DNA from: a virus
Length of the DNA stretch: 46,337 bases
Virus record (IMG/VR): IMGVR_UViG_3300042923_000541
Coordinates: 1 to 46,337 of that record
Strand: one strand, 5' to 3'
Part shown: positions 5,153 through 41,264 of the stretch, piece by piece
How positions within the stretch are numbered: position 1 is the first letter of the stretch
How the letters are laid out: each line of letters begins with the position of its first letter
Translations under genes and position numbers: made by a program
Notes under the pieces: model-generated
The model's input: the letters and a program-made list of their open reading frames with translations, nothing else
Told to the model about the DNA's origin: nothing
Databases searched by the model: none

Positions 5153-6499
5153 TTGGCGAAAAGGCAAGACGGATTTACAAATGTGTTTCTGGGTAATGGA
5201 GTTAAAGGGCGCGACCCACTGGCAAGCACCCGTTACCAGCCAGGGCATTGGATGACTGATCAGAAGCTAGCCTCCATGTACTATGGCGACGGGCTAGTAC
5301 GCCGGATTGTGGATCTGCCGGCGGAAGAAGCAGTAAAGAATTGGATTAAGGTCTGCGGCGATGAAGAAGAGGAATTGGCAATACAAATGCTCGATGATCT
5401 GAGCGCAGAAGAGCACTTTGCCAACGCGGTTCGATGGAGCAGGCTGTTTGGAGGTAGTGCGATTCTTCTCTCAGTTGACGATGGCGGCACGCTGGAGGAT
5501 GAACTGCGAGAGGACAGTATAAGAAATGTCGAGGCGTTGAAGGTCTACGACAAACGAGAGGTCATTATCAATAACGCTATTTTTAACGATGACCCCAGGA
5601 GTCAGTTCTTCGGCCTGCCGGAGTGGTTCGAATTCAATCCTGCTAACGGAACGTTGTTCTATGCTCACCGGAGTAGGGTGTTGCTGTTCGATGGAGAGCC
5701 GATTCCAAACACCGAACGGTTACAACGCCAAGGATGGGGAATGTCGTGTATTCAGGGATTGTTTGACTCACTGGCACGCAATGACGATTCGTACAGGTTA
5801 GCGCGAATGATTATGGAGCGGATGAGCCAATCAGTGACGAAGTTCAAGGATCTGTTAAACGAGCTAGCTACAGACGAAGGCGAAGAGCGCGTCAAAACCC
5901 GCTTACAGCTAATCGACATGGCACGGTCCATTCTGAACACAATTGCGATTGACTCAGAGGATGACTTCCAGTTGCACAACATGAACCTGTCCAATCTACC
6001 GGAAATGATTGACCGCTTCGGACTCTATATCAGCGCCTTATCTGGTCTACCATTCACATGGCTATTTGGCCGATCGCCAGCAGGTCTCAACGCTACTGGT
6101 CAGAGCGACAATGAAATTGGCTATAGCTTCGTGCGAAGGCTGCAGAAACGACGGCTAAAGGCCAATCTTGATAGGCTTGTAAAGTTGTTAATGCTATCGC
6201 AAAGGGGCCTGTTCCGCGGGGTTCAGCCGGATAAATGGGCAGTAGAATTTAATTCTGTTTGGCTGCCAAGCGAGAAAGAGCAGGCCGAAACCCGCAAGCT
6301 AAATGCTGACGCTGATAAGGCAGAGGCGGACACCGCAACCGCTTATGCCAATATTAATGCGCTTGATGGTTCGGAAGTTCGCCAAATGTTGGCGGCTGAC
6401 AGCAAATACAGCGAACACATGGACATGACGCTTGATGTGACGCCAGAGCCAGAACCCGATCCTGAGGAAGTGGTTGACGATGGCGAAACCGAAAAGTAG
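5153..6499 (+). CDS. Portal protein (DUF1073/HI1409 type)
   Basis: The 448-residue portal forms the dodecameric channel for DNA entry and tail attachment. The N-terminal DPLASTRYQPG, the YYGDGLVRRIVDLPAEEAVKNW block and the central GLPFTWLFGRSPAGLNATG block are characteristic of the DUF1073 portal family of small contractile phages. It starts at TTG 5153 behind GAAGGTGAGA. The C-terminal 70 residues are acidic and Ala-rich. Related proteins are sometimes labelled Acb1-like; position and length favour a plain portal. Confidence 0.88.
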   Translation: MAKRQDGFTNVFLGNGVKGRDPLASTRYQPGHWMTDQKLASMYYGDGLVRRIVDLPAEEAVKNWIKVCGDEEEELAIQMLDDLSAEEHFANAVRWSRLFGGSAILLSVDDGGTLEDELREDSIRNVEALKVYDKREVIINNAIFNDDPRSQFFGLPEWFEFNPANGTLFYAHRSRVLLFDGEPIPNTERLQRQGWGMSCIQGLFDSLARNDDSYRLARMIMERMSQSVTKFKDLLNELATDEGEERVKTRLQLIDMARSILNTIAIDSEDDFQLHNMNLSNLPEMIDRFGLYISALSGLPFTWLFGRSPAGLNATGQSDNEIGYSFVRRLQKRRLKANLDRLVKLLMLSQRGLFRGVQPDKWAVEFNSVWLPSEKEQAETRKLNADADKAEADTATAYANINALDGSEVRQMLAADSKYSEHMDMTLDVTPEPEPDPEEVVDDGETEK

Positions 6500-28401: not shown

Positions 28402-28417
28402 AAATAGTTCTGCTGTG

Positions 28418-28440
28418 GCCGCTCTAGGGGCGGCTTTTTC
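28418..28440 (+). terminator. Terminator
   Basis: GCCGC (28418-28422) pairs with GCGGC (28430-28434), followed by TTTTT. Confidence 0.75.
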
Positions 28441-28453
28441 CATGTATTACCGC

Positions 28454-28482
28454 TTTACTTCTACGAACGTTTGTTCTATGCT
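28454..28482 (+). promoter_or_regulatory. SOS-type promoter with LexA box
   Basis: TTTACT (28454-28459), 17-base spacer, TATGCT (28477-28482). CGAACGTTTGTTCT (28464-28477) lies in the spacer and fits the Firmicute LexA/DinR box CGAAC-N4-GTTC with both half sites intact. Confidence 0.8.
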
Positions 28483-28500
28483 TATCGTGAGGTGAGCAGC

Positions 28501-28749
28501 GTGAATCCCATTAATCCAAAGAAAATTTACATTAAGGTCATCGCCGAGCATGATCCGAATACCGGCACAAAGCCTCTGTATGTCATCTGGGAAGACGGCC
28601 GTAAATTCGAAATAGATCGCGTCTTAGGCATAAATAAAGCCGCATCCTTAAAAGCTGGCGGTTGGGGTATTCGTTATACCTGCCGGATACTGGGGCAGGA
28701 GCGGTATCTGTGGGAGGAAGAGGGCAAGTGGTTTGTTGAGGGGAAATAG
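28501..28749 (+). CDS. Small SOS-linked protein of a Clostridia repair-associated family
   Basis: An 82-residue protein from GTG 28501 with GTGAGGTGAG upstream. The block I-W-E-D-G-R-K-F-E-I-D-R-V, then A-A-S-L-K-A-G-G-W-G-I-R-Y-T-C-R-I, Y-L-W and W-F-V is a conserved small family I recall from Clostridia and Negativicutes, often near Y-family polymerase genes. Its function is unknown. The LexA box upstream and Ku downstream support a repair role. Confidence 0.72.
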   Translation: MNPINPKKIYIKVIAEHDPNTGTKPLYVIWEDGRKFEIDRVLGINKAASLKAGGWGIRYTCRILGQERYLWEEEGKWFVEGK

Positions 28750-28781
28750 CCATTATATACCGCCTGACCTCGATTATTCGA

Positions 28782-28790
28782 TGTGATATA
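28782..28790 (+). promoter_or_regulatory. Extended -10 promoter of the Ku gene
   Basis: TGATATAAT in front of the Ku gene, with a perfect TATAAT and a TGn extension but no convincing -35. It allows Ku expression apart from the LexA-boxed promoter. Position read by eye. Confidence 0.5.
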
Positions 28791-28813
28791 ATCGTGGGAC
28801 AGGGGGTGATCCC

Positions 28814-29626
28814 ATGAAACCGATCTGGAAAGGCATGTTATCATTCGGCCTCATTAATGTTCCGGTCTCCTTGTGCAGCGCGACTAAAAAGAAAACGGTC
28901 AGCTTTAACCAACTCCGTAAATCTGATTACAGCCGAATTCGATACAAAAAGGTCGGCAACGATGATCAGGAAGTACAGCAAAGCGAGATCGTAAAAGGCT
29001 ATGAAATATCCCTGGATAGATACGTCGTTATTACTGACGCTGAACTGGCGACGATAACGCCGGCTGCCAGTCGTGTAATTGAAATATCGGACTTTGTGAA
29101 GCTTGAACAGATAGATCCACGGCACTATGATGCGTCGTACTATCTCGTGCCCGAAAAAGGCATGGCTAAAGCGTACACGTTGCTGCTCGAAGCCATGCGA
29201 GAATCAAATGTAGTTGGGATAGCTAAGTTCGTAATTCGCAGCAAAGAATACCTCGCGGCGATTAGGCCGGCGGAGGGAGCGCTAACACTATCCACGATGC
29301 TGTTCGCAGATGAAATAATTAACTCCAGCGAATTGGACGCCTATCTGCCTAAAGATGTAAAACCATCCGATAAGGAAATGAATATGGCCCGGCAGTTAAT
29401 CCAGGCTCTGGTGACAGATTTCGATCCCGGCAAATACGTAAACGAGTATCACGAGCAAGTCATGAAGCTCATTGACGCCAAAGCCGAGACTGCAATCCAG
29501 GCCGTAGAAATACCTCATGGCAGCGGATCCGTACTTGACCTTATGTCCGCGTTGGAGGCCAGCATGAAGGCACTGGCGCCGAAGCCTAAAGAGAAGAAGC
29601 CAAGAAAGAAAGCATCTGGCGCATGA
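28814..29626 (+). CDS. ku: Non-homologous end-joining protein Ku
   Basis: A 270-residue Ku homologue from ATG 28814 with AGGGGGTGAT upstream. It has the bacterial Ku start W-K-G-M-L-S-F-G-L-I-N-V-P-V-S-L, I-R-Y-K-K near residue 43, V-K-G-Y-E-I-S-L-D-R-Y-V-V-I near residue 59, the Y-Y-L-V-P-E-K core and I-R-S-K-E-Y-L-A-A-I-R. The tail is Lys-rich, as in host Ku. It rings onto DNA ends and recruits LigD; no ligase gene is in this genome, so host LigD would be required. Mycobacteriophages Omega and Corndog also encode Ku. Confidence 0.93.
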   Translation: MKPIWKGMLSFGLINVPVSLCSATKKKTVSFNQLRKSDYSRIRYKKVGNDDQEVQQSEIVKGYEISLDRYVVITDAELATITPAASRVIEISDFVKLEQIDPRHYDASYYLVPEKGMAKAYTLLLEAMRESNVVGIAKFVIRSKEYLAAIRPAEGALTLSTMLFADEIINSSELDAYLPKDVKPSDKEMNMARQLIQALVTDFDPGKYVNEYHEQVMKLIDAKAETAIQAVEIPHGSGSVLDLMSALEASMKALAPKPKEKKPRKKASGA

Positions 29627-29783: not shown

Positions 29784-29822
29784 AATCCCCAGAAATCGCT
29801 AGATTGCTGGGGATTTTGCTTT
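29784..29822 (+). terminator. Terminator between Ku and integrase
   Basis: AATCCCCAG (29784-29792) pairs perfectly with CTGGGGATT (29807-29815), followed by TTGCTTTTG. It can work on both strands because the minus side also ends in T-rich sequence. Confidence 0.75.
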
Positions 29823-29915
29823 TGATAAAGTAATTTTTAGAAGCCAATAAAAGCGTAGAGATGGGTGTGGTTCAGAATTAATTCAGAATCGGTTCGGATG
29901 GTGGTTAGGATATGC

Positions 29916-31100
29916 TTACAAGGTATTAATGACTTTCCGGAGGCTTTCCAGATCAGCATCTTGATACTCTCTTAACATTCCATCGCTGGCGTGCCCGATG
30001 AGAGAAAGTTTATCCTTGTCAGCACCCAGTGCATTTTTCAACAGATTAGCAAATGTGTGACGGCAGCAGTGTGGCGTTAGCAGTCGCGCTTCCCGCTCTG
30101 TCTCGTTGATTCCGATAGCGTCCAGGGCAGGGGCGAAGTAATCCTCGCGAAATTTACGAAGGTTAAACCGTTCTCCGGTGCTTTGGTCACAGAATACATA
30201 CAAACTGGTTTTGCTTTCTATCAGCGTGTCTACATACTGCTGGATTTTATCTGAAACTGGAACAATTCGATCTTTCCCCGCCTCAGTCTTAGCACCGCCA
30301 ATAAAATATTTCTCGGCTTTATTATAATTTTCTATGCGGAGGTCGACAAATTCACTAGGGCGAAAACCGAGATAGCACATACAATAGATGTAGTCTGCAT
30401 ATGGAACCTTGCCAATAGCCTGACGGATTTTTTCTAACTCATCGGTCATGAATCCAGTCCTACGGCTTTCTGTGGCCTTGATATTGATGACAATAAATTG
30501 AGATAAAATAAGATCACGTGATACATACTGCCGCGGTACGGCGTATTTATAGATCAATCCACACAGACTTTTCATTGTTTCCCTTGTTCGCTTTCCGCGC
30601 GGGCACTCATCTATGCACTCTTGCAGATCATCTATGTAGATGTCATCCATTTTTTGCTTATGCACAGGAGAGAAATGTTTATATACTGATTTATAACCGG
30701 CCATCGTTCCTTTTCCGGCAGTATGAGTCGGCAGCCATGCTTCATATACCTCTTCAAAGGTCTCCGGTCTTTTTGCCGGCTTCCCTTTCCTTGAACCAGG
30801 CGGCGCTTTACCCCACTTCTTGTATCCATCCTCGCGCAGAGCAGGAACATACGCCGAAGCATCAGCCTTCTTTTTAAACCCGGACTTTGAGATAGTTTTT
30901 GGCTTCATGCGATTTTTTTCAGGATCCCAGTAGTACCACAATACGACTTCCGCGAGCCACGACCCATCCTGTAGCTTCCTGACACTGCCTTCGCCGTTTG
31001 CGCGTTTGGTTGTTTTTGCTTTTTTAACTTGCTTTTTCCCGCAAAATGCGCAAAACGCCGCGCCAGGCGGCAGCTCGCGGGAGCAGTGTATGCAGGACAT
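29916..31100 (-). CDS. int: Tyrosine integrase with N-terminal zinc ribbon
   Basis: A 394-residue site-specific recombinase from ATG 31100 behind AGAGGTGAT. Residues 1-22 form a zinc ribbon (C-I-H-C ... C-A-F-C-G). An AP2-like arm-binding segment follows (N-G-E-G-S-V-R-K-L-Q-D-G-S-W), then the core-binding domain and the catalytic domain with G-F-R-P-S-E-F (Arg I), the K of G-G-A-K-T-E-A-G-K-D-R, H-C-C-R-H-T-F (His-x-x-Arg), G-H-A-S-D, and Tyr in L-R-E-Y-Q. It inserts the phage at attB. Confidence 0.93.
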   Translation of the reverse strand: MSCIHCSRELPPGAAFCAFCGKKQVKKAKTTKRANGEGSVRKLQDGSWLAEVVLWYYWDPEKNRMKPKTISKSGFKKKADASAYVPALREDGYKKWGKAPPGSRKGKPAKRPETFEEVYEAWLPTHTAGKGTMAGYKSVYKHFSPVHKQKMDDIYIDDLQECIDECPRGKRTRETMKSLCGLIYKYAVPRQYVSRDLILSQFIVINIKATESRRTGFMTDELEKIRQAIGKVPYADYIYCMCYLGFRPSEFVDLRIENYNKAEKYFIGGAKTEAGKDRIVPVSDKIQQYVDTLIESKTSLYVFCDQSTGERFNLRKFREDYFAPALDAIGINETEREARLLTPHCCRHTFANLLKNALGADKDKLSLIGHASDGMLREYQDADLESLRKVINTL

Positions 31101-32776: not shown

Positions 32777-33706
32777 CTATCTATTCTTGCCGCGAATGAC
32801 TTTTTGTTCCTTTGCAGCCGCCACTTCCGAAGACGAAGAATGAATACGTTGCACAAGTTGACCAAGTACTGTTATGGACCCGCAATACTCACAAAACAGT
32901 GCATCAGGCGCATTCGCCTCACCACAGATGCTGCGTTCGCGGGCATTAGAACAGTAATTATATAAAGGCTCTCCACAGAGTTTACAATGAAGGGCCGGGG
33001 GAGAAAAGTCGTTATTGCCACAAGATGGGCAATATAGGTAACGCCGTTTTTCGTCGATATCAGGAAAGATAAGCGAGTCGACCATAGGGACTCCCCTCCA
33101 AAAGTCACGCCGTGATGTGCAATAATTGACGGGTATTTTGGCAGATTTTTTGACTTCATGTTGTTCGAACATGGTTTCCGTATAGGCTTTGGAGGCTATA
33201 CCTAACTCGTCTAGCCGGTTAATCATCGCTTCCCATGAAACGCCGAATACATTCTTCAATCGTCCGATTTCCCCTACTTGAAAGGGAAGTCGGACTTCTT
33301 TTATCAGTAGCTTTTCCGGCATCAAGAGGCAGGCTGCGAAGATATCGGCTTCACGGTCAAGCGTCCAATATTCTCGATCTGTAAGGTTGTCCACATCGTA
33401 CTCATGGTGATGTTGTAGCATGATGTGACCCAGTTCGTGGGCGAGTGTGAAGGCGTCTAGACCGCTAGGCAAGTCGGCGTTGATATAAACGCGATATGTA
33501 TCTCTGAAGGGATAGGAGAAGCCTTTTTCTTGCGCAAAGTCCGGAAATTGGTTGTTGCTGAAGAAGTGAAGCTCGCTATGCATCTTTATCAATTGTTTAA
33601 CCGGAATAGGTGGAGCGTGGATAGCGTGATGAATCAATGTTAATTGAGCGTGAAGTTCTGCCACAGTGTTGCGAATTTTGCGTGGTCGCTTTTCGGACGT
33701 TGTCAT
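32777..33706 (-). CDS. ImmA/IrrE-type metallopeptidase with C-terminal zinc ribbons
   Basis: A 309-residue protein from ATG 33706 (GTG 33709 also possible), next to CGGAGGTG. The zinc protease motif A-H-E-L-G-H is at residues 89-94, with D-R-E-A-D-I-F-A-A-C-L-L-M-P downstream, as in ImmA of ICEBs1, which cleaves the ImmR repressor. The C-terminal 100 residues add cysteine pairs (C-P-S-C-G, C-K-L-C-G, C-E-Y-C-G), a double zinc ribbon unusual for ImmA. It is encoded directly after the CI-like repressor. Confidence 0.85.
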   Translation of the reverse strand: MTTSEKRPRKIRNTVAELHAQLTLIHHAIHAPPIPVKQLIKMHSELHFFSNNQFPDFAQEKGFSYPFRDTYRVYINADLPSGLDAFTLAHELGHIMLQHHHEYDVDNLTDREYWTLDREADIFAACLLMPEKLLIKEVRLPFQVGEIGRLKNVFGVSWEAMINRLDELGIASKAYTETMFEQHEVKKSAKIPVNYCTSRRDFWRGVPMVDSLIFPDIDEKRRYLYCPSCGNNDFSPPALHCKLCGEPLYNYCSNARERSICGEANAPDALFCEYCGSITVLGQLVQRIHSSSSEVAAAKEQKVIRGKNR

Positions 33707-33742
33707 CACCTCCGGTTCGTGTGATGAAATTCACGATAATGT

Positions 33743-34096
33743 TTACTCTTCTCCATTATCTGGAATAGATAACTCGATAATTTTAGCAATGCGGCGGCGT
33801 TCGGCTTCGGTTGGACGCCGCCCGGCGCGACGAAGAACACGGGTTACTTCGGGCCATATTTGCTCAATGGATTCTTCTTGCTGGTTATTTACATTTTTAA
33901 CGTCCCCTAGAAGATAATCAGTAGTTACGCCATAAATTTTAGCAAGATCATTTAATATCGTGGTATCCGGGTCCCGTTCGTTCCGTTCATAGTTAGAGAG
34001 GGATTGGCTGGTAACTCCTAACAACTTAGCCACATATACTTGGGACATCCCCTTATTCTCTCTAGCCCGTTTTAATCTTTCGCCAAGAGTTTTCAT
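33743..34096 (-). CDS. CI-like repressor, HTH_3 (Xre) family
   Basis: A 117-residue protein from ATG 34096 behind AGGAGGTG. Residues 5-60 form an Xre-type helix-turn-helix (L-K-R-A-R-E-N-K-G-M-S-Q-V-Y-V-A-K-L-L-G-V-T-S-Q-S-L-S-N-Y-E) with the typical Y-G-V-T-T-D-Y-L-L-G end. No peptidase domain, so inactivation probably depends on ImmA rather than RecA. It should bind the operators at 34193-34246 and 34446-34462. Confidence 0.9.
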   Translation of the reverse strand: MKTLGERLKRARENKGMSQVYVAKLLGVTSQSLSNYERNERDPDTTILNDLAKIYGVTTDYLLGDVKNVNNQQEESIEQIWPEVTRVLRRAGRRPTEAERRRIAKIIELSIPDNGEE

Positions 34097-34120
34097 TATC
34101 AACTTCACCTCCTAAATCAC

Positions 34121-34129
34121 ATTATAGCA
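34121..34129 (-). promoter_or_regulatory. Repressor promoter (extended -10)
   Basis: On the minus strand TGCTATAAT, a perfect TATAAT with TGn extension, 25 bases upstream of the repressor start; -35 is weak. A half operator TAAACGAA lies just upstream. Confidence 0.65.
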
Positions 34130-34187
34130 ATAGTAAACGAAAAGAATAAAAAATTAAACAAAAAGTATAAAATGTGATTGACTTAAA

Positions 34188-34217
34188 CGAAATGTTTATA
34201 TTATAATCAAACCATGG
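34188..34217 (+). promoter_or_regulatory. Early rightward promoter
   Basis: TTGACT (34188-34193), 18-base spacer, TATAAT (34212-34217). Operator 1 fills the spacer and operator 2 follows the start site, so bound repressor would block it. Confidence 0.85.
34193..34209. promoter_or_regulatory. Operator 1 of the lysogeny switch
   Basis: TTAAACGAAATGTTTAT, a near-palindrome of 17 bp sharing its half site with operators 2 and 3. Confidence 0.78.
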
Positions 34218-34229
34218 AATTAAACGAAT

Positions 34230-34246
34230 CGTTTAACTGGAGGTGA
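34230..34246. promoter_or_regulatory. Operator 2 of the lysogeny switch
   Basis: TTAAACGAATCGTTTAA, a perfect 17-bp palindrome (one central base) between the early promoter and the Cro-like start. Confidence 0.85.
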
Positions 34247-34250
34247 AAAA

Positions 34251-34490
34251 ATGCACATTGGAGAACAAATAGCGGCAATCCGAAAAAGAAAGGGGCTAAA
34301 AGGCACTTTTGTCGCACGGCAGTTAAACAGAACGCCCGGGTGGCTTTGCAACATTGAAAAGGGCAGGAGAAGCGTGAGCGCTAAAGAGCTTGGTATATTG
34401 GCTGATGTTTTAGGTGTAGATGCAAATATTTTTTTTGCCGACAAATTAAACGAAATGTTTAATTGCAAAAAACCGAAAGACGTAGCATAA
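34251..34490 (+). CDS. Cro-like HTH protein
   Basis: A 79-residue Xre-type DNA-binding protein from ATG 34251 with TGGAGGTG upstream. The helix-turn-helix is G-T-F-V-A-R-Q-L-N-R-T-P-G-W-L-C-N-I-E-K-G, followed by L-A-D-V-L-G-V-D-A-N-I-F-F. It is the first gene rightward from the switch, opposite the repressor, so the Cro role is likely. Its 3' end contains operator 3. Confidence 0.87.
   Translation: MHIGEQIAAIRKRKGLKGTFVARQLNRTPGWLCNIEKGRRSVSAKELGILADVLGVDANIFFADKLNEMFNCKKPKDVA
34446..34462. promoter_or_regulatory. Operator 3, inside the Cro-like gene
   Basis: TTAAACGAAATGTTTAA, nearly identical to operator 1, lying within the coding end of the Cro-like gene where it encodes K-L-N-E-M-F-N. 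Confidence 0.78.
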
Positions 34491-35263: not shown

Positions 35264-35439
35264 GATTGCTCACCTGCCTTAATCGGCCCATTCTTCGCTT
35301 CAAAGTTAGAGACATACTGCTCCAGTGCAAATTCTATTTCTTTGTTGGCTGAACGTTTGTTTTGGGTGGCAATAAATCGGATTTTATTTAGCAAATCTTC
35401 CGGTATGCGCAGAGAAAACGGCGGAATGATTGACGGCAC
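35260..35439 (-). CDS. Arc-family ribbon-helix-helix protein
   Basis: A 59-residue protein; GTG 35439 is best spaced behind AAGGAG (TTG 35448 is possible). It carries the Arc-like signature: P-P-F-S-L-R-I-P-E-D-L-L-N-K-I-R-F-I-A-T-Q-N-K-R-S-A-N-K-E-I-E-F-A-L-E. It is divergent from another ribbon-helix-helix gene at 35578, with repeats between. Confidence 0.82.
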   Translation of the reverse strand: MPSIIPPFSLRIPEDLLNKIRFIATQNKRSANKEIEFALEQYVSNFEAKNGPIKAGEQS

Positions 35440-36752: not shown

Positions 36753-36956
36753 ATGGAAAGATGCCTGTATACCACGTTCGACAGATATTTTGACCGGACT
36801 AGCGGCATGGAGTACGCCCGTAAGTGGTACTGCAAGGCTGACACGCCAATCATAAAGGATCTAAATAAAGCACTGCGAACGATGCATAGTTCATCATCCC
36901 GTGGGATGATACAGGCTTTGGTTGATGAGCTTAGAAGCCGCAAGCAAGCGGCATAG
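36753..36956 (+). CDS. Small hypothetical protein
   Basis: A 67-residue protein; ATG 36753 is well spaced behind GGAGGG, whereas ATG 36747 touches it. Aromatic and basic at the start, a helix at the end. Not recognised. Confidence 0.55.
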   Translation: MERCLYTTFDRYFDRTSGMEYARKWYCKADTPIIKDLNKALRTMHSSSSRGMIQALVDELRSRKQAA

Positions 36957-36969
36957 GGAGGGAAAATTA

Positions 36970-37656
36970 ATGTCAAACATCACGCCGGAAAAACTCCGCG
37001 AACTGATAGAATCTCATGGCCGCTGGCTGCGGGATGAGCCGAACGGCAGCCGCGCAGACCTCAGTGGCGCAGACCTCAGGGGCGCAGTCCTCAGTGGCGC
37101 AGACCTCAGGGGCGCAGTCCTCAGGGGCGCAGACCTCAGGGGCGCAGTCCTCAGTGGCGCAGACCTCAGGGGCGCAGTCCTCAGTGACGCAGTCCTCAGT
37201 GACGCAGTCCTCAGGGGCGCAGACCTCAGGGGCGCAGACCTCAGGGGCGCAGTCCTCAGTGGCGCAGACCTCAGGGGCGCAGTCCTCAGTGGCGCAGTCC
37301 TCAGTGGCGCAGACCTCAGTGACGCAGTCCTCAGTGACGCAGACCTCAGTGACGCAGACCTCAGTGACGCAGTCCTCAGTGACGCAGTCCTCAGGGGCGC
37401 AGTCCTCAGGGGCGCAGACCTCGACAAACGCTACATCCAGATATCTTGCATCGGCAGCCGCAAGGAAATGACTACATACTGCTTCAAGGACGATCATATT
37501 TCATGCGGTTGCTTCCCGGATGGCACGTATAAAGGCGGCACGCTGGACGAGTTTGAAACTGCAGTACGCGAGACACATGCCAACAACCCGCAGTATCTAG
37601 CTGAGTATTTGGGCTTTATTGGGTATATTCGGTCGCTAAAGGAGGCTGCGAAATGA
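36970..37656 (+). CDS. Pentapeptide-repeat protein
   Basis: A 228-residue protein from ATG 36970 with GGAGGG upstream. Residues about 29-153 are 24 uninterrupted A-[DV]-L-[SR]-[GD] repeats that would build a right-handed square helix, the DNA-mimic fold of Qnr and MfpA. A 75-residue C-terminal domain ([27 protein letters not shown]) follows. The DNA repeats are nearly identical 15-mers (37054-37413), indicating recent amplification. Whether it binds gyrase or another protein is unknown. Confidence 0.88.
37054..37413 (+). repeat. 24 tandem 15-bp repeats
   Basis: Units of the form GCAG[AT]CCTCAG[GT]G[GA]C, 24 copies without interruption, coding for the pentapeptide repeats. Only three positions vary, so slippage could change copy number in steps of five residues without breaking the frame. 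Confidence 0.92.
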
Positions 37657-37817: not shown

Positions 37818-39827
37818 ATGCAAAAAATAGCACTGGTAAATTTGATCCTGCGTAACTTCAAAGGCATGAAACAGTTTGAACTAAATGCAAACGGCGGTAA
37901 TGCTGCCGTCTATGGCGATAATGCCACTGGTAAAACCAGCATCGCAGATGCGTTCTTATGGATATTCACCGGCAAAGACAGCCAAGGCAAGCAAGCCGAA
38001 AATAGCATCAAAACCCTAACTGCAAGCGGCGAGGAAGTCCATCACCTGGATCATGAGGCCGAAGCCATACTCGCTATGGGCGGGCGTACAGTCTCACTAA
38101 AAAAAGTGTACCACGAGATATGGACCAAGAAACGTGGCGCCGCAACCGATTCGTTCACTGGACACGAAACCGAGCATTTTATCGACGGTGTGCCTAAGTC
38201 CAAAAAGGAATACGACGCTTTTGTCTCAGGTATAGCGGGGGAAGAAACATTTAGGCTCTTAACCAATCCGGCCTATTTCAACACACAGCTCCACTGGCAA
38301 GACCGCCGGCGCATTCTAATGGAAGTTTGCGGCGATGTGTCAGACGAAGAAGTCATTGCCTCCGACAACTCACTGGCAAGGCTGAGGCAGATACTTAATG
38401 GCCGCGCGATCAAAGACCATCAAAAGGTTATTGCCAGTCAAAAAGCTGAGATCAACAAGCAACTCAAGGAGATTCCCGCCCGCATTGATGAGGCGACAAG
38501 GGCGCTGCCGGATGTTTCATCCGTTTCTCCTGCCGAGGTTATTGATGTCGAAATATCCTCGCTGAAAAAGCAACTCGCAGACAAACAGCAAGAACTGGTC
38601 AGAGTGGAAAACGGCGGCGAGGTCGCCGAGAAACAAAAGGCAGCGCGTGAGATTGAAGGCCGGTTGATCGACCTGAGGAATAAGCATCGAGCAGCAAATG
38701 AAGACAAGACTTTTGCTAAGAGAAATGAGCTTCAAAAGCTTCAATTGCAAGCATCTGGAATGGTTAACGACATAAAAACAAAAGAGCTACGATTAGCCAG
38801 CATTCGCAACGATATCGACAGTTCCAATCAAAAACGTACGGCCCTGCTCGACCGCTGGCACTCCGTTAATAACGAGCAATTCACCTACTCGGAAGAAACC
38901 AACTGCCCAACGTGTGGGCAAGACCTGCCGGAAAGCAAGGTTGCAGAGGCAATTCAAAAAGCACAAGAGACGTTTAACGCCGGAAAGTCGATCCGGTTAG
39001 AATCAATCAACACTGAGGGCAAGTATATCAAGGTTCAGCTTTCGTTACTCGAAACGGAGCAATCCGGGATACAGTCCGAATTGGAAATAATCACTGCATC
39101 CCAGAATCAGTTGGGGCAGACTATTGCGGCCATTCAAGCCGAAATATCTGCTGAGCGTCCCGCTGAGACAGTTGAAGCGACAGCCGAGTATCAAAGTTCC
39201 ATCCGCGATCTAGGCGCAATCCAGGAGCAAGTAGCGGCAATAAACAACCAGAAACAGGGCGTGCTGCGGCAGGTGCAAATTGAGATTAATTTAATCGGAC
39301 AGGATATCGCGGCGCGCGAAAAGAGTCTAACTCTTCTCGACCAGTACAAGAAAGGCCGGAAGAGGATTGAGGAATTAGCAGCACAGGAAAAGACTCTTGC
39401 GGCTGAATATGAACGGTTGGATGGCGATCTCTTCCTGACCGAACAGTTTATCCGGGCGAAAGTCAATCTGCTCGAGAGCCGCATCAACAGCAAATTCAAA
39501 ATGGCAAGGTTTAAGATGTTTGAGCAGCAGGTGAACGAAGGAATCAAAGAATGCTGCGAGACAACATGCGGCGGAGTTCCTTATTCCGGTGGCCTAAATA
39601 ATGCGGCTAGAATCAACGTAGGTCTGGATATCATCAACACGCTCAGTCAGCATTACAACTTCTCGGCGCCAATCTTCGTCGATAATGCGGAGTCGGTAAC
39701 GGAGTTGATTCCGGTCAATGCCCAGGTTATTAGTTTAGTGGTTAGTAAGCCGGATAAGGTTCTGCGGGTTGAACCAGGGCAAGGCCAGGCTGCAAAAGAT
39801 TTAGGGTTATTTAAGGAGGCGGTATAA
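37818..39827 (+). CDS. SbcC/Rad50-like ATPase
   Basis: A 669-residue ABC-type SMC-like ATPase from ATG 37818 with TTGGAGGT upstream. Walker A is G-D-N-A-T-G-K-T-S (33-41), a long coiled coil spans about 190-560, with a zinc hook C-P-T-C near residue 365, and the end shows the S-G-G-L-N-N-A-A-R signature and Walker B (I-F-V-D-N-A). Rad50-type proteins work with an Mre11/SbcD nuclease, which is absent here. Context (RecT-like and MBL genes) suggests end resection in phage recombination. Confidence 0.85.
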   Translation: MQKIALVNLILRNFKGMKQFELNANGGNAAVYGDNATGKTSIADAFLWIFTGKDSQGKQAENSIKTLTASGEEVHHLDHEAEAILAMGGRTVSLKKVYHEIWTKKRGAATDSFTGHETEHFIDGVPKSKKEYDAFVSGIAGEETFRLLTNPAYFNTQLHWQDRRRILMEVCGDVSDEEVIASDNSLARLRQILNGRAIKDHQKVIASQKAEINKQLKEIPARIDEATRALPDVSSVSPAEVIDVEISSLKKQLADKQQELVRVENGGEVAEKQKAAREIEGRLIDLRNKHRAANEDKTFAKRNELQKLQLQASGMVNDIKTKELRLASIRNDIDSSNQKRTALLDRWHSVNNEQFTYSEETNCPTCGQDLPESKVAEAIQKAQETFNAGKSIRLESINTEGKYIKVQLSLLETEQSGIQSELEIITASQNQLGQTIAAIQAEISAERPAETVEATAEYQSSIRDLGAIQEQVAAINNQKQGVLRQVQIEINLIGQDIAAREKSLTLLDQYKKGRKRIEELAAQEKTLAAEYERLDGDLFLTEQFIRAKVNLLESRINSKFKMARFKMFEQQVNEGIKECCETTCGGVPYSGGLNNAARINVGLDIINTLSQHYNFSAPIFVDNAESVTELIPVNAQVISLVVSKPDKVLRVEPGQGQAAKDLGLFKEAV

Positions 39828-39828
39828 T

Positions 39829-40560
39829 ATGAGCACCCAGGAAGCAAAAGCAGAATTTTTACCACAAAACATTACTCCCGGCTTTGGTAGCCTTCAGAGT
39901 TTTGAATTATCGCAGAGAGCGGCGACGCTTCTTTCCAAATCGACGTTAGTGCCGAAAGAGTACCAAAACAATCTACCAAACTGCGTAATCGCTCTGAACA
40001 TGGCCGGAAGAATGAACGCTGATCCGCTCATGGTTATGCAAAATCTGTATATCGTTAACGGCAAACCCGGTTGGTCATCACAGTTTTTGATTAGCACTTT
40101 CAATACCAGTGGCCGTTTTTCAGCACTTCGCTATGAATGGGTTGGAAGCCCCGGAACTGACGAAAGAGGCTGCAAAGCATACGCCTATGAAAAAGGAAGC
40201 GGTGAGAAACTGGAAGGTTCCTGCGTAACGATTGTGATGGCAAAAAAAGAAGGCTGGTACGGAAAATCTGGAAGCAAATGGCCTAACATGCCTGATCAAA
40301 TGCTTATGTACCGGGCTGCAGCGTTCTTCATCAGGACATATGCGCCAGAGCTAGCAATGGGGATGCGGACGGAAGAAGAGATCATCGATATGGAACAGAC
40401 TGAAAGCGGTTCATATGAGATAAAAGTAGCATCTGATATTAAAAATAACGCTAACAGTGAACCAATCGACATTGATGCTAAAGTTGTTCAAGACGAACTA
40501 AAGCAAGAACGATCGGTACCGAAGCCAGAGCCTGCGCCTAAATCAGGCCCCGACTTCTAG
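39829..40560 (+). CDS. RecT/Red-beta-like single-strand annealing protein
   Basis: A 243-residue protein from ATG 39829, two bases after the ATPase, with AAGGAGG upstream. The core N-C-V-I-A-L-N-M-A-G-R-M-N-A-D-P-L-M-V-M-Q-N-L-Y-I-V-N-G-K-P-G-W-S-S-Q-F and Y-R-A-A-A-F-F-I-R-T-Y match phage RecT-type annealers. The tail is Lys/Glu/Pro-rich, as in annealers that bind host SSB. It anneals single strands for recombination-dependent replication. Confidence 0.82.
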   Translation: MSTQEAKAEFLPQNITPGFGSLQSFELSQRAATLLSKSTLVPKEYQNNLPNCVIALNMAGRMNADPLMVMQNLYIVNGKPGWSSQFLISTFNTSGRFSALRYEWVGSPGTDERGCKAYAYEKGSGEKLEGSCVTIVMAKKEGWYGKSGSKWPNMPDQMLMYRAAAFFIRTYAPELAMGMRTEEEIIDMEQTESGSYEIKVASDIKNNANSEPIDIDAKVVQDELKQERSVPKPEPAPKSGPDF

Positions 40561-40562
40561 CC

Positions 40563-41264
40563 GTGGATATCCAAACATTCGCATCCAGCAGTTCGGGGAA
40601 TTGCTACGCAGTAAGTGACGGACAAACCCAGTTGATGCTGGAATGCGGCATACCATACAAGCAAATTCAACGGCATCTAGACTTCAAACTGTCCGATATT
40701 TCCGGAGTGGTGATTAGCCATGAGCACAAAGACCATGGTAAGGCTGCTAAAGACATTCTAAGGGCAGGGGTAGAGGTTTATACCTCCGAGGGCACTGCCT
40801 CTGCTCTGGGGCTGTCCGGACACAGATTACACCGCATTAAAGCACGTCACCAGTTCAAAGTCGGCACATGGACTATCTTGCCGTTTGATACCCAGCATGA
40901 CGCCAAAGATCCGCTAGGATTTCTGTTAGCCAGCGGCAGCGAGAAACTACTGTTTGCTACAGACACCTACTACATACGGTACCGATTCAACGGATTAACG
41001 CATTTAATGATCGAGTGCAACCACTCAGCCGATATTCTGCAGGCAAACGTAGCGTCCGGCGCCGTTCCACAGGCTTTGAAAAACAGGTTGATTCAGTCAC
41101 ATTTCAGTTTGGATAACGTCAAGGAATTTTTGAGATCAAATGACTTGAGCCGGGTTCGCGAGATTCATTTGCTACATCTGAGCGATGGAAATAGTGATGC
41201 GGTTAGGTTCAAGCGAGAGATTCAGGCACTTACAGGCAAGATGGTATTTATAGCAGGGGAATGA
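40563..41264 (+). CDS. MBL-fold metallohydrolase
   Basis: A 233-residue protein from GTG 40563. The metallo-beta-lactamase motif H-E-H-K-D-H is at residues 53-58, with L-F-A-T-D-T-Y-Y near 130 and H near 175 and 210 completing a two-metal site. Phages of Firmicutes often keep such a gene beside recT; a nuclease role (YycJ/WalJ type exonuclease) is likely but unproved. Confidence 0.83.
   Translation: MDIQTFASSSSGNCYAVSDGQTQLMLECGIPYKQIQRHLDFKLSDISGVVISHEHKDHGKAAKDILRAGVEVYTSEGTASALGLSGHRLHRIKARHQFKVGTWTILPFDTQHDAKDPLGFLLASGSEKLLFATDTYYIRYRFNGLTHLMIECNHSADILQANVASGAVPQALKNRLIQSHFSLDNVKEFLRSNDLSRVREIHLLHLSDGNSDAVRFKREIQALTGKMVFIAGE

Follow-up and report, generated by a model that had tools for sequence, protein, structure and literature searches.

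Can a Ku protein carried by a phage come under the SOS response of its host, and what would it do there? This question is raised by a two-gene segment of the IMG/VR virus record IMGVR_UViG_3300042923_000541, the whole of which (46,337 bases) was analysed and is called the window here. A sequence-only reading had described a Firmicute-type LexA box between the -35 and -10 elements of a promoter, followed by a small conserved repair-type protein and by Ku beside attP.

The locus and its phage setting

The window holds the gene set of a tailed phage, with a Terminase_3 terminase, a portal, a Major_capside coat protein, a KilAC antirepressor, a RecT-like gene and RusA. It also encodes a tyrosine integrase, and its helix-turn-helix repressor adjoins an ImmA/IrrE metalloprotease. 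The segment is placed with lysis-side genes on one side and the integrase on the other, and runs from a hairpin through the boxed promoter, the small gene, a gap of 64 bp and Ku to a stem-loop and arm-type repeats (Table 1). Terminator-like hairpins were seen by eye at the equivalent position upstream of the cassette in the relatives L002, L012 and L014. The relatives give us the impression of a Negativicutes or Clostridia type.

Table 1. Features of the Ku segment and its flanks (positions in the window)
Feature	Position	Strand	Basis
Intrinsic-terminator-like hairpin, separates cassette from upstream gene	28417..28435	+	consensus match
Small-gene promoter: -35 TTTACT (28454-28459), 17-nt spacer, -10 TATGCT (28477-28482)	28454..28482	+	read directly
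Predicted LexA box CGAACGTTTGTTCT, between -35 and -10, fills spacer	28464..28477	+	direct reading, conserved in relatives
Small gene, 82 aa, all-beta, GTG start at 28501	28501..28749	+	family alignments, AlphaFold2
Ku's own promoter: CTGACC, 17 nt, extended -10 TGATATAAT, no LexA box	28764..28792	+	consensus match
ku, 270 aa, bacterial-type Ku	28814..29626	+	PF02735, TIGR02772, PHROG 4873
Candidate integrase arm-type repeat, left arm of candidate attP, TGGTTCAGAACCGGTTCAGAA	29671..29691	+	
Stem-loop, 14-nt arms, then T-rich tract; likely ku transcript end	29784..29815	.	inverted repeat I1
Candidate integrase arm-type repeats, two copies, right arm of candidate attP	29868..29899	+	
Tyrosine integrase	29916..31097	-	PF00589 2.2e-12, phrog_1 4.5e-43

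Ku matches PF02735 over the full length of the beta-barrel core (E 2.7e-49, positions 1-190 of 190) and scores 290.7 bits against TIGR02772, the bacterial NHEJ equivalog with a cut-off of 150, which bears out the claim of a phage Ku. Its tail is lysine-rich, and strong purifying selection is strongly indicated by the comparison of the window with L002 (dN/dS 0.046). Identity to any mycobacteriophage Ku is at most 35.5%, and a scan of genome contigs gave a single Ku match, of Verrucomicrobial origin, at 38%. The Ku of MT838252 (L003) was considered as a phage relative and dropped, as it reads as an actinobacterial chromosomal fragment. On the far side of Ku, the 21-nt arm repeats flank about 180 bp beside the integrase, and the region between them is a good candidate for attP. 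The placement of Ku next to attP stands as far as the repeats and the adjacent integrase go, with attP itself kept as a candidate.

Other parts of the window hold further recognizable modules. An ImmR/ImmA-like pair of repressor and metalloprotease at 32777-34490, accompanied by another HTH gene that is divergent and by TTAAACGAAATGTTTAA-like operators in repeated copies, predicts protease-driven prophage induction. A SMC/RecF-like ATPase, a RecT-like annealing protein and a metallo-beta-lactamase-fold gene stand in a row at 37818-41264 and probably form a phage recombination operon. A pentapeptide-repeat-like protein with tandem (A/D)LSGA-type repeats is encoded at 36922-37656.

A predicted LexA box and its conservation

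Direct reading confirms the motif between -35 and -10, ahead of the small gene and Ku. The promoter that it occupies is weak by consensus, with only 8 of 12 matches, a score under the promoter-scan threshold and a weak -10 (TATGCT); the equivalent position in L002 reads TTTACA-17-TAAAAT. The box is the sole perfect GAACN4GTTC in the window, where about 0.7 would be expected by chance in 46 kb by our own arithmetic, and a single box taken alone is weak evidence that could reflect chance. Another site, GAACGTTTGTTT at 35351-35362, is one base off the box core, lies within a small Arc-like coding region and is probably a chance occurrence. The possibility that the box is an operator of the phage's own repressor is disfavoured, by eye only, because the repressor region carries a different, TTAAACGANNNGTTTAA-like motif near 34187-34232 and 34447.

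Conservation among relatives was assessed in 29 loci whose transcription unit is led by the small gene or by the Y-family polymerase gene that heads the operon of the small gene. These loci came from two alignment-based scans of viral contigs, one Ku scan and plasmid hits, and L013, L019 and L080 were kept among them although no box was found in these three. A box agreeing with GAACN4GTTC at seven or more of its eight bases occurs within 100 bp upstream of 26 of the 29 lead genes against 25 of 825 other ORFs of the same related loci (3.0%). For the perfect box, the counts are 10 of 29 and 4 of 825 (0.5%). An earlier test with random windows as the control gave 2.3% at the lower threshold and 0.3% for perfect boxes. 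The binomial value of 1e-36 overstates independence, since some of the 29 loci are closely related, and the contrast is still large. The conservation test led us to reject the reading of the box as a chance palindrome, which we regard as extremely improbable, even though near-matches are not enriched in the window (11 found against 16.4 expected). The box of the window is also letter-identical in L002 despite near-saturated synonymous sites in Ku (dS 1.5).

The consensus across the related loci, (C/A)(G/A)AACATATGTTCT, is close to the Gram-positive LexA box. A second box lies downstream in L002, L012, L016 and L077, and the box also precedes Y-polymerase-led operons that hold the small gene (L070, L084, L054). 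LexA binding has been demonstrated in gut Firmicutes, where a site ahead of a phage integrase is among those bound (PMC3998124). No boxes were seen ahead of the Y-polymerase genes in the eight gut-phage relatives checked, so these loci are presumably controlled differently. Given how consistently the box recurs ahead of lead genes, SOS/LexA control of the small gene is very likely, and the proposed Firmicute-type LexA box gains its support from the relatives.

The small gene, Ku and their partners

The protein encoded by the small gene has no match in Pfam, PHROG or NCBIfam, and no YolD domain was found in it. Its AlphaFold2 model (mean pLDDT 86) is all-beta with six strands, for which neither a PDB match at E <= 0.001 nor a viral fold match below E 0.001 was recovered. 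W77, R58 and K8 are conserved in the family alignment. The family adjoins Y-family polymerases in about 35 gut-phage loci as well as in L013, L070, L077, L084 and L054; in L013 the small gene sits between the polymerase and a protein with a LexA DNA-binding domain, and in gut-phage relatives (L005-L008, L020-L052) it stands in a repressor/IrrE-protease setting. The small protein described earlier as conserved and repair-type is thus upheld as a member of a conserved, repair-linked family.

Standalone ImuB-C proteins, described in 2013, have about 80 residues, are beta-rich and carry a conserved C-terminal Trp, and their operon partners include DinB, LexA, Ku plus ATP-ligase and DUF955 proteases (PMC3765255). 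The small protein shares the length of about 80 aa, the beta-rich composition and the conserved C-terminal Trp, along with conserved basic residues. The neighbourhoods likewise share a Y-family polymerase, a LexA-type protein, Ku and ligase, and an IrrE/DUF955-type metallopeptidase. They differ in that the present ones are found on phages and plasmids, may have Ku without ligase and show explicit conserved LexA boxes. Comparison of the family with ImuB C-termini from Verrucomicrobial genomes by hhalign aligned only the C-terminal W-F/L-x-E segment (14-15 columns, E 0.003-0.01, probability 4-9%). The ImuB-C fold has no close PDB relatives (PMC12926913), and the small protein likewise has no significant PDB match, which is weak evidence. 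We suggest that the small gene represents an unnamed SOS/TLS-linked family and a candidate standalone ImuB-C protein. It probably works in the same setting as standalone ImuB-C proteins, to which we would assign it by inference. The SOS operons YolD/YqjX-UvrX of Bacillus resemble the segment in joining a small SOS-linked accessory gene to a Y-family polymerase. They differ in the YolD domain, and the partner here is Ku.

Related elements show further arrangements of these genes. On an Oscillospiraceae plasmid (L054:4710-10630), a LexA-boxed DNA polymerase IV, the small gene, a SIR2 protein, a DNA ligase and Ku lie in one stretch. Two phage-encoded proteins with LexA DNA-binding domains (L013:4084-4608, 174 aa; L061:3596-3883, 95 aa) are too short for the LexA peptidase domain. 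The L061 gene has a box, CGAACAAACGTTCT, in its promoter and is divergent from Ku-ligase. It is conceivable that such short proteins act as non-cleavable local competitors of LexA.

The sequence-only reading had called for a search for the same gene pair in other prophages. Small gene and Ku are paired in five elements; they share a strand in the window and in L002, L012 and L058, and they converge in L014. The pair is decayed in L017, an isolate-derived prophage record, where a remaining fragment of Ku (5300-5893) lies downstream of the small gene and on the other strand. L012 is another tailed phage, judging from the tailed-phage portal and the weak terminase match in its record. The two genes do not share one history: the small gene of L002 is nearest to that of L012 (dN 0.08), and its Ku is nearest to that of the window (dN 0.07), an incongruence that suggests independent recombination. 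Ku is missing from other relatives that have the small gene, which means that joint action of the two is not obligatory.

No ATP-dependent ligase (PF01068) is encoded in the window record, and none was found in the records with close Ku relatives (G000, G001, G003, G004, G009), some of which are fragments. More distant Firmicute phages (L061-L065) have kept Ku with a ligase. In L063 and L065 the two lie beside a LexA-boxed Y-family polymerase and in L061 beside a LexA-type gene, and Ku on Firmicute mobile elements thus recurs beside SOS-boxed genes.

Ku appears to have a promoter of its own. The match in the window (CTGACC-17-TATAAT with a TG extension) agrees with the consensus at 10 of 12 positions and is the top score in the region; an extended -10, TGNTATAAT, lies ahead of Ku in five of five loci. 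Ten loci were checked for a LexA box at seven or more of eight bases within 100 bp of Ku, and none has one. In L012 (4235-4347) and L058 (3904-4000), a terminator-like hairpin lies between the promoter-like extended -10 and Ku, as if Ku were attenuated; no terminator-like site was found in the 64 bp between the genes of the window. The box-less promoter, these hairpins and the convergent Ku of L014 imply that SOS would reach Ku only via read-through. The read-through message itself might be poorly suited to this. In the four same-strand loci, the ribosome site of Ku pairs with sequence upstream of the putative start point with a probability of 0.81-0.97, compared to 0.31-0.39 in shuffled controls, of which 7 to 18 of 300 reach the native value; the upstream pairing is 0.0 in L014/L060. 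These predicted folds are suggestive only of a longer mRNA that hides the Ku ribosome site. They serve as a lead, since the test was devised only after the folds were seen and for L002 and L012 the short Ku message shows no clear gain in accessibility. With a box-less promoter and a possibly hidden ribosome site, Ku may have no link to SOS at all. LexA control of Ku is possible, if somewhat doubtful. The proposal that Ku is switched on by SOS keeps the box ahead of the upstream small gene and is weaker than claimed, as Ku's own promoter lacks one.

Competing explanations and significance

The explanation that we favour, with modest confidence, is an SOS-linked accessory repair cassette, or moron, with a LexA-repressed small gene and with Ku expressed from its own promoter plus read-through, which would aid survival of the lysogen. 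Such a cassette of a temperate phage would be self-contained, bounded by a terminator on one side and by the integrase with attP on the other. The product of its first gene would be a small SOS accessory protein with a beta-barrel, probably of ImuB-C type, and host LexA on the spacer-filling box would block RNA polymerase until RecA triggers LexA cleavage. Ku would be transcribed from its own promoter, with extra message by read-through once the first promoter is derepressed. It would bind broken DNA ends and, as the record lacks an ATP-dependent ligase, would either join them with a host ligase of the LigD type or protect them. The pay-off would be that lysogen and prophage survive DNA breaks. 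LexA binding, read-through and the benefit to the lysogen are what we infer. Phage morons share with the segment their own promoters and terminator-like hairpins, a place between lysis and lysogeny regions and variability among relatives; the upstream hairpin, the Ku promoter and the downstream stem-loop are present here as consensus matches only. What sets the cassette apart from such morons is its SOS operator and its pair of repair genes.

The main alternative is that the box controls the small gene only. Ku would then be an independent constitutive module brought by recombination, unresponsive to SOS, its read-through message poorly translated. The extended -10 in all five loci without a box within 100 bp, the hairpins after the Ku promoter in L012 and L058, the convergent Ku of L014, the incongruent divergence of the two genes and the ribosome-site pairing would all be explained. 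However, just these two genes are paired repeatedly, they are only 64 bp apart in the window without a recognizable terminator between them, and the folding test is post hoc. We hold this alternative to be a substantial but rather doubtful possibility. A broader variant of the favoured cassette would be a LexA-controlled plug-in of Firmicute phages and plasmids, in which an ImuB-C-like adaptor recruits a Y-family polymerase or Ku, with Ku complexed with the adaptor and a host ligase; this seems fairly unlikely.

Two further explanations concern what Ku does. As a Gam-like protector, Ku might shield ends from the host AddAB/RecBCD nuclease rather than ligate them. Mu Gam, which is related to Ku and protects linear phage DNA (PMC1378119), provides a precedent, and the records with close Ku relatives, some of them fragments, fit in lacking an ATP-dependent ligase. 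The protein nonetheless has the full extent of a bacterial Ku, a lysine-rich tail and a high score to the NHEJ equivalog, and other Firmicute phages keep Ku with ligase, which makes this role unlikely. Alternatively, Ku could circularise the incoming phage genome by end joining, a role proposed for the Ku of mycobacteriophage Corndog, with the LexA box adding supply at induction. Corndog is a precedent for phage Ku (PMC4351075), and the adjacency of Ku to the integrase and candidate attP would suit such a role. Corndog and Omega indeed share a bacterial-type, phage-encoded Ku with the window, which differs in its neighbourhood and its SOS-boxed partner gene and gives no evidence for short cohesive ends. 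The Terminase_3-type family includes headful packagers, and the phage has both such a terminase and a RecT-like gene. An ATP-dependent ligase is absent from the record, the cassette is equipped with promoters of its own, its relatives come with different partners, and LexA control would be useless to an incoming genome in an unstressed cell. The circularisation role put forward earlier found no positive support; it is possible but not indicated, and we consider it quite improbable.

SOS-Ku-ImuB-C neighbourhoods, predicted in 2013, and phage Ku are already known. Their combination on phages, together with conserved LexA boxes and without a ligase, did not turn up in the searchable open literature, the coverage of which is incomplete, and neither did any report of SOS-regulated phage Ku. 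Bacterial Ku-based end joining is usually treated apart from the SOS response. By placing an SOS operator next to Ku, a mobile phage cassette would connect them and open a route for end joining to spread. The analysis also defines an unnamed, widespread family of LexA-boxed genes.
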